A stretch of DNA of 33,620 bases from Betaproteobacteria bacterium (GTDB lineage: Bacteria; Pseudomonadota; Gammaproteobacteria; Burkholderiales; Burkholderiaceae_C), in assembly GCA_009921465.1 (NCBI GenBank), contig RFXS01000009.1, positions 1 through 33,620 of the forward strand, in the 5' to 3' direction. Below are positions 1,115 through 4,626 of this stretch, in pieces. Each line of letters opens with the position of its first letter. Position 1 is the stretch's first letter. The position numbers and the translations under genes are program-made. The notes beneath the pieces were generated by a model. It was given only the letters and a program-made list of their open reading frames with translations. It was not told the DNA's origin and did no database searches.

Positions 1115-2092
1115 GTGCCTGACCTGAGGCCTGTGGCCATCACCTTGGGAGATGCGGCTGGCATTGGCCCGGAGATCATTGCCAAAGCATTTGCCAGCCA
1201 CCCCCAGGCCACCCAAGGTTGTGTGGTGTTTGGTGACGCGCGTGTCATGGCCCAAGCGGTGCAAGCTTTGCCCCAGGCTGCGTCCCTCACGTTCACAGTG
1301 ATCAACGATTTGGCACATGCGCTGCATGCGCCTTCGGGGGTGATTCCTTTGTGGCAAGTCGGTAAGTTGGACGTGCTGCCCCCTTTGGGACAGGTCAGCG
1401 CGGCCAGCGGTCGATTGGCTGCCGACTGTGTGCGCACCGCCGCCCAAGCGGCTTTGCGAGGGCAGGTTCAGGCCGTGGTCACGGCGCCTTTGAACAAAAC
1501 GGCCTTGGCCGCGGGGGGGGAAGATTTTCCCGGCCACACCGAGCTGCTTCAGGACTTGGCCGCCACACACTTGGGCGTGCCTGTGGACCAGTTGCCCGTG
1601 CGCATGATGCTGGCCAACCAGGAGTTGCGCACCGTGTTGGTGAGCATCCACGTGTCTTTGCGCCAAGCCATCGAGGCGGTCACCGTGGAGAACGTGCTGC
1701 AAACCTTGCGCATTGCCCATGCCAGTTTGCGCAACTTGATGGGGCGCGAGGAAATCGACATCCTCGCCCCAGCGATTGCGCAGGCCTGCGCGATGGGAAT
1801 GGATGTCAGTGGGCCATACCCGCCCGACACGGTTTTCATGCGCGCGCGCGCCAGCCATGGGCAAGCCGATGCGATTGACGCTGTGGTCGCGATGTACCAC
1901 GACCAGGGCTTGATTCCGGTCAAATACCTGGGGCTGTCGCAGGGCGTGAATGTCACCTTGGGCTTGCCTTTTGTGCGCACCAGCCCCGACCATGGCACGG
2001 CCTATGACATTGCCGGTCTGGGGGTGGCCGATCCGGCCAGCTTACTGGCCGCGTTGCACATGGCCAGGGGTTTGGCGGTCAAAACCAATTGA
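1115..2092 (+). CDS. pdxA: 4-hydroxythreonine-4-phosphate dehydrogenase PdxA, with internal deletion
   Basis: The protein has 325 residues from a GTG start preceded by GAGGAAG. PdxA oxidises 4-phosphohydroxy-L-threonine with NAD in the DXP-dependent pyridoxal phosphate pathway, in the cytosol as a metal-dependent dimer. Recognisable blocks are GDAAGIGPE near the N-terminus, FPGHTELL with metal ligand His141, MYHDQGLIPVKYLG with His262, and TLGLPFVRTSPDHGTAYD. What is odd is that LRNLMGREEID (about residues 205-215) joins two segments that in E. coli and Pseudomonas PdxA are separated by about 22 residues carrying NPHAGEGG, whose His is the third metal ligand. The frame is intact. The product may therefore be inactive, or the locus may be mis-assembled. 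A PdxA paralogue acting on another phosphorylated acid is possible, but those also keep this motif as far as I recall. Confidence 0.85.
   Translation: MPDLRPVAITLGDAAGIGPEIIAKAFASHPQATQGCVVFGDARVMAQAVQALPQAASLTFTVINDLAHALHAPSGVIPLWQVGKLDVLPPLGQVSAASGRLAADCVRTAAQAALRGQVQAVVTAPLNKTALAAGGEDFPGHTELLQDLAATHLGVPVDQLPVRMMLANQELRTVLVSIHVSLRQAIEAVTVENVLQTLRIAHASLRNLMGREEIDILAPAIAQACAMGMDVSGPYPPDTVFMRARASHGQADAIDAVVAMYHDQGLIPVKYLGLSQGVNVTLGLPFVRTSPDHGTAYDIAGLGVADPASLLAALHMARGLAVKTN
1720..1760 (+). other. Deletion junction inside pdxA
   Basis: Around base 1738 the coding sequence runs directly from the helix ending in HASLRNLM to GREEIDILAP. Relatives place about 22 residues here, including the metal-binding NPHAGEGG motif. 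The join is in frame, so about 66 bases appear to be missing. The comparison uses E. coli and Pseudomonas PdxA sequences from memory, not a run alignment. Confidence 0.7.
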
Positions 2093-2684: not shown

Positions 2685-3284
2685 ATGAGTGACACCCGTT
2701 TGGACACCAGCAAGCGCACCTGGCTCATCGCCTCTGGGTGCGCTGGTGCAGTCGGCGGCATCGCCACGGCCGTTCCGTTTGTCAGCACTTTTCAGCCCTC
2801 CGAAAAAGCCAAGGCGGCCGGCGCAGCGGTGGAAGTGGACATCAGTGCCATCAAGCCGGGCGAAAAGCTCACGGTGGAGTGGCGTGGCAAGCCAGTTTGG
2901 ATCGTGCGCCGCACCACCGAACAACTCGAGTCCCTCAAAAAGACCGAGGCCCTATTGGCCGACCCCAAGTCACTGCGCAACCCCGACGACCTCACCCCCG
3001 CGTATGCGCGCAACGAGGCGCGATCGATCAAACCAGAATTTTTTGTGGGCGTGGGCATTTGCTCCCACTTGGGTTGTTCCCCCTCGGACAAGTTTCAAAC
3101 CGGTGCCCAGCCATCTTTGCCAGACGACTGGGCAGGTGGTTTTTTGTGCCCCTGCCACGGTTCGACCTTTGACATGGCCGGTCGGGTGTTCAAAAACAAG
3201 CCAGCGCCAGACAACTTAGAGGTGCCACCGCACATGTACCTGTCTGACACGCTGTTGGTCATTGGCGAAGACAAAAAGGCCTGA
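2685..3284 (+). CDS. petA: ubiquinol-cytochrome c reductase iron-sulfur subunit (Rieske)
   Basis: The protein has 199 residues. ATG 2685 was chosen over the longer ORF because it gives the standard N-terminus and follows GAGGAT. It is the Rieske 2Fe-2S subunit of the cytochrome bc1 complex, carrying electrons from ubiquinol at the Qo site to cytochrome c1. An N-terminal anchor/Tat-like segment (SKRTWLIAS then a Gly/Ala-rich hydrophobic stretch) precedes the periplasmic domain. The cluster motifs CSHLGC and CPCHGS are intact, including the disulfide Cys and both His ligands, separated by the usual proteobacterial insertion (DKFQTG...DDW). It is the first gene of petABC. Its last bases overlap the only available petB start. 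Confidence 0.96.
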   Translation: MSDTRLDTSKRTWLIASGCAGAVGGIATAVPFVSTFQPSEKAKAAGAAVEVDISAIKPGEKLTVEWRGKPVWIVRRTTEQLESLKKTEALLADPKSLRNPDDLTPAYARNEARSIKPEFFVGVGICSHLGCSPSDKFQTGAQPSLPDDWAGGFLCPCHGSTFDMAGRVFKNKPAPDNLEVPPHMYLSDTLLVIGEDKKA

Positions 3285-4626
3285 CAGGAATCAACGCTTT
3301 CCTGCAACCAAGCTGTACAAAGAGCATTTGAGCGAGTATTACGCGCCCAAAAACTTCAATTTTTGGTACTTCTTTGGCTCCTTGGCCTTGTTGGTGCTGG
3401 TCATCCAAATCGTGACCGGTATCTTCTTGGTCATGCATTACAAGCCCGATGCGGCACAGGCGTTTGCCTCGGTCGAGTACATCATGCGCGATGTGCCTTG
3501 GGGTTGGCTGATTCGCTACATGCACTCCACCGGCGCCTCGGCCTTCTTTATCGTGGTTTATTTGCACATGTTCCGTGGCTTGATCTATGGCTCTTACCGC
3601 AAACCGCGCGAACTGGTGTGGTTGTTTGGTTGCGCCATTTTCTTGTGCCTGATGGCCGAGGCTTTTATGGGCTATTTGCTGCCTTGGGGCCAAATGTCTT
3701 ATTGGGGTGCCCAGGTGATCGTGAACCTGTTCGCCGCTGTGCCCGTGATTGGCCCCGATTTGGCCTTGCTCATTCGTGGCGACTATGTGGTGAGCGACGC
3801 AACCCTTAACCGATTCTTCAGCTTCCACGTCATTGCGGTGCCTTTGGTGCTGCTCGGCTTGGTGGCGGCGCACATCATTGCGCTGCACGAAGTGGGCTCG
3901 AACAACCCTGATGGGGTTGAAATCAAAAAGTACAAAGACGCCCAGGGCAAGCCCTTGGACGGCATTCCATTCCACCCCTATTACACGGTGCACGACATCA
4001 TGGGTGTCAGCGGGTTCTTGGTGGTGTTCACCGCCATCATCTTTTTTGCGCCTGAATTGGGCGGCTACTTTTTGGAGTACAACAACTTCATCCCAGCCGA
4101 CCCCCTCAAGACCCCTTTGCACATTGCGCCCGTCTGGTATTTCACGCCTTACTACTCGATGCTGCGCGCCATCACCTCTGAGATGATGTATGCGCTGGTT
4201 GTGTGTGTGTTGGGTGCAGCCTACCTGGGGGCAACACGCACCGCACTGCCCAGTTACCTCAAGGGCACCATCGTGGCCGCTGCGGTCATCGCGGTGGGCT
4301 TGATGCTCAAAATTGACGCCAAGTTTTGGGGTGTGTTGGTCATGGGTGGCGCGGTCATCATTTTGTTTTTCTTGCCGTGGTTGGACAACTGCGCGGTCAA
4401 ATCCATCCGTTACCGCCCCGACTGGCACAAATACCTGTACGCCATTTTTGTCATCAACTTTGTGATACTGGCCTACTTGGGCGTGCAGCCGCCGTCCCCG
4501 ATTGGTGAGCGTGTCTCGCAAGTGGGCACCTTGTATTACTTTGGCTTTTTCCTCCTGATGCCGTGGTGGAGCCGCTTGGGTGACACCAAGCCTGTGCCAG
4601 ATCGCGTGACATTCACCCCTCACTGA
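3262..4626 (+). CDS. petB: ubiquinol-cytochrome c reductase cytochrome b, N-terminus shortened
   Basis: The protein has 454 residues if translated from TTG 3262, the only plausible in-frame start before the conserved RFPATKLYKEHLSEYY. Cytochrome b carries two hemes in the inner membrane and forms the Qo and Qi sites of complex III. The heme-ligand histidines are present (RYMHSTGAS and VVYLHMFRG; SFHVIAVP and AAHIIALHE), as is the Qo region with a PVWY version of the PEWY motif, and eight or more membrane helices. What is odd is that relatives carry about 23 residues before RFPAT, starting with a proper ATG after the petA stop. Here petA ends at 3284 and RFPAT follows almost at once, so the normal start and about 20 codons look deleted. 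TTG 3262 lies inside petA and has no clear Shine-Dalgarno. Confidence 0.9.
   Translation: MAKTKRPDRNQRFPATKLYKEHLSEYYAPKNFNFWYFFGSLALLVLVIQIVTGIFLVMHYKPDAAQAFASVEYIMRDVPWGWLIRYMHSTGASAFFIVVYLHMFRGLIYGSYRKPRELVWLFGCAIFLCLMAEAFMGYLLPWGQMSYWGAQVIVNLFAAVPVIGPDLALLIRGDYVVSDATLNRFFSFHVIAVPLVLLGLVAAHIIALHEVGSNNPDGVEIKKYKDAQGKPLDGIPFHPYYTVHDIMGVSGFLVVFTAIIFFAPELGGYFLEYNNFIPADPLKTPLHIAPVWYFTPYYSMLRAITSEMMYALVVCVLGAAYLGATRTALPSYLKGTIVAAAVIAVGLMLKIDAKFWGVLVMGGAVIILFFLPWLDNCAVKSIRYRPDWHKYLYAIFVINFVILAYLGVQPPSPIGERVSQVGTLYYFGFFLLMPWWSRLGDTKPVPDRVTFTPH

Follow-up and report, generated by a model that had tools for sequence, protein, structure and literature searches.

A 63-nt in-frame gap in pdxA of a betaproteobacterial draft genome and its probable origin in assembly

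The metal ligands of PdxA in E. coli are the three histidines His166, His211 and His266, and in the open literature no paper was found that directly states them. Local assembly errors in MAGs are documented, as are the incorrect genes that result from them in publicly deposited drafts (PMC7111523). Here the window, i.e. the whole stretch of DNA that was analysed (33.6 kb), is contig C202 of an assembly (G000) of 223 contigs and 1.93 Mb, which is estimated to be 57.6% complete with low contamination. Its pdxA gene was compared with these two described systems.

The pdxA gene and its 63-nt gap

1115..2092, plus strand: pdxA, 4-hydroxythreonine-4-phosphate dehydrogenase, with 63 nt missing (TIGR00557 of NCBIfam, 311 bits; colinear with loci L004 and L005 except for the 63-nt gap)
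1734..1735, plus strand: junction of the 63-nt loss in pdxA, i.e. 21 codons including LNPHAGEGG with the counterpart of E. coli His211 (aligned at the DNA level with three relatives, and in two pairwise alignments)

The pdxA ORF has a GTG start and a length of 325 aa. As assembled, the whole protein scored 311.2 bits with the TIGR00557 model, above the curated cut-off of 290.35 bits, and the intact PdxA of a neighbour scored 364.8 bits with the same model. The nearest same-genus relatives, G015:C440 (L004) and G069:C83 (L005), were colinear with the window at ca. 82–85% DNA identity, and fine alignment against either of them placed the absence of exactly 63 nt at 1734|1735. The loss is in frame and its junction is clean, with no direct repeat of more than 1–2 nt, and the string LRNLMGREEID corresponds to PdxA residues 205–215 (nt 1727–1759). 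An earlier note on this DNA had described an in-frame loss of the NPHAGEGG segment, which the alignments confirmed; its size estimate of ca. 66 bases was right as to a block being missing and slightly too large as to the length.

Ligand residues were placed by aligning the window protein with E. coli PdxA (1ps7). The lost histidine is that of position 211, so the assembled PdxA lacks this metal-ligand segment. The other two ligand positions are kept, as His179 (in SIHVSLR) aligns with E. coli His166 and His262 (in MYHDQG) with His266. Of the two histidines named as remaining in the earlier note, His262 was thus correctly assigned, but His141 (in PGHTE) aligns with E. coli His136, and the second remaining position is that of His179.

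The NPH motif was found in 109 of 109 homologous loci, 29 from the same genus and 80 more distant, the latter scored with a looser motif spelling (NPHSGE, NPHCGD, NPHASE). The short form, which might have been shared by close relatives, occurred in none of the 29 same-genus loci. Two further genomes of the genus (G032 and G039, 91–99% completeness) gave no match or a weak match to the window pdxA, possibly reflecting true absence of the gene or a divergent form.

In comparison with L004, the dN/dS of pdxA was ca. 0.13 before the junction and ca. 0.06 after it and, as judged from these ratios, both flanks are under purifying selection. Such values on each side indicate that the function of pdxA was maintained until very recently, if it is not maintained still. 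An inactive enzyme, as considered earlier, is therefore not supported as biology.

The search for a second intact pdxA in the assembly gave only a divergent PdxA-family paralogue on the minus strand of contig C185 (G000:C185:1668-2612, L115), in which an NPHNGDNG segment is intact and PGHTE is absent. Its identity is 37%, and with 243 bits it does not reach the PdxA cut-off of 290. The suggestion that another pdxA does the job is accordingly weak, since the C185 protein, the only other family member found, is not convincing as a PdxA replacement.

Losses in petB and gyrB

3286..4626, plus strand: petB, encoding the cytochrome b of the bc1 complex, its native start missing
3294..3295, plus strand: junction of a 70-nt loss at the petB start (alignments to loci L004 and L006 and to the genomes G015 and G069)
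G000:C12 (L195), 1312|1313, minus strand: out-of-frame loss of 91 nt in gyrB (comparison with proteins of the relative G026)

Throughout the 33.6 kb of the window, comparison with both G015 and G069 revealed losses of conserved-gene blocks only at pdxA and at 3294|3295. The similar small loss named at petB in the earlier note is thus real: it takes away a single intergenic base and 23 petB codons, the start codon among them, and the gap adjoins the petA stop. A TTG at 3262, within the end of petA, is now the sole point from which the petB frame is open. Microhomology at this junction is at most 1–2 nt. The pdxA and petB junctions lie within 1.6 kb of each other and represent two of the three losses found.

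A census of losses covered ca. 311 kb of readable letters of the 1.93-Mb assembly, which were compared with proteins from 1.24 Mb of the complete relative G026; the comparable set was 94 genes at ≥50% identity. One further loss was identified, the 91-nt loss in gyrB on contig C12, with microhomology of at most 1–2 nt at its junction. The gyrB gene occurs once in the assembly, where the break leaves two open frames (208 aa and 469 aa), and the other gyrB match, on contig C6 (38% identical), looks like parE. A cell with its only gyrB frameshifted cannot live, and the gyrB loss is hence taken as an error. Together, the three losses of 63, 70 and 91 nt heed neither reading frame nor start codon.

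The same comparison applied as a control to 262 kb of related genomes returned variation in low-conservation linkers only, and no losses of conserved blocks. Contigs C1, C2, C80 and C140 (20 kb of each, ca. 80 kb) contained no such loss, so the errors are sparse. On contig C150 (L210, 1-17909), almost nothing beyond the first 1.6 kb matches three same-genus genomes; the contig could be foreign or represent a genomic island.

Origin of the losses

The lengths of 33 of 42 contigs of the assembly are −1, 0 or +1 modulo 30 (binomial p ca. 2e-25), as against 6 of 26 contigs of the relatives. The pattern suggests an unusual 30-base stepwise procedure in the making or cutting of the contigs, to which the three losses may be tied. 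No 30-base phase was found in the substitutions along the window. The distance between the pdxA and petB junctions is 1560 bases, i.e. 52 × 30, but the gyrB junction gave no simple fit, and the spacing was not relied on.

The gap in pdxA is probably a local assembly error, arising from the same process as the petB and gyrB losses. Losses of the same kind are present in gyrB, which the cell cannot do without, and at petB, and the pdxA loss is not common to close relatives. As at least the gyrB loss is an error, it is simplest to regard all three in this way. Faulty joining or consensus building would have dropped stretches of 60–90 nt, those at petB (70 nt) and in gyrB (91 nt, on another contig) by the same process as the one in pdxA. 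The source cell would then most likely carry a normal PdxA of ca. 346 residues with all three metal-binding histidines. An assembly deletion with a cause common to pdxA and petB had been proposed in the earlier note, and the loss in the sole gyrB and the 30-base regularity of the contigs support it. An assembly error is further favoured by the purifying selection on pdxA next to the junction, by the NPH motif in all 109 homologous loci and by the control genomes, in which conserved blocks were intact. Against it speak the sparseness of the losses, two of which lie close together, and the junctions themselves, at which no known error signature or direct repeat was found. Microhomology-driven deletion was considered and rejected, as the sequences at the junctions have at most 1–2 nt in common.

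An origin before assembly is improbable, though it is the strongest of the alternatives: the consensus may have been taken from a chimera formed by amplification before sequencing, as with single-cell DNA, or from a strain variant of minor abundance. Amplification chimeras can yield short deletions with little homology, such pre-sequencing chimeras would look identical to the losses seen here, and the low completeness, the 223 contigs and the low contamination would be in keeping with DNA from a single cell or with low coverage. Neither version, however, explains contig sizes stepped by 30 bases, and a minor variant would also leave the gyrB frameshift unexplained.

It is very unlikely that the sampled strain underwent a real and recent deletion that inactivated PdxA, vitamin B6 being taken up from outside. 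The clean, in-frame junction agrees with such an event, which would nevertheless require that the petB start, 1.6 kb away, was also really lost, and independently, in an assembly that the gyrB frameshift shows to make such losses falsely; moreover, the deletion is seen in none of the 29 relatives and the remainder of pdxA is under purifying selection. That the living strain truly lost both the PdxA metal-ligand segment and the petB start, so that a member of this genus would just have given up vitamin B6 synthesis and bc1 respiration, we hold to be even less probable. Hardly credible at all is a functional short PdxA whose metal site differs, or the replacement of PdxA by the paralogue on C185. 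The kept frame and the intact NPHNGDNG of the paralogue speak for these two possibilities, but the removed block contains a metal ligand and core sequence that is present in every homologue compared, and the C185 protein has no PGHTE and falls under the PdxA cut-off.

Implications and comparison with known systems

The loss in pdxA exists in the sequence but most likely not in the organism itself. Where a catalytic motif is absent from this draft through a small in-frame loss, this should accordingly not be taken as biology, and a cheap test of such drafts is provided by gaps that break the frame of indispensable genes, together with unnatural regularity of contig sizes. Were the deletion real, vitamin B6 synthesis would have been lost only recently here, but the evidence is to the contrary.

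The losses resemble the local MAG assembly errors described in PMC7111523 in being small and local and in producing incorrect protein-coding genes in public drafts, and they differ in the 30-base regularity seen here, which goes unmentioned in the part of that paper concerned with such faults. With E. coli PdxA (1ps7/1ptm; TIGR00557), the window protein has in common its sequence and the motifs PGHTE, SIHVSLR, MYHDQG and DHGTAYDIAG, and it differs, as assembled, by being 21 residues shorter at the segment that includes LNPHAGEGG.
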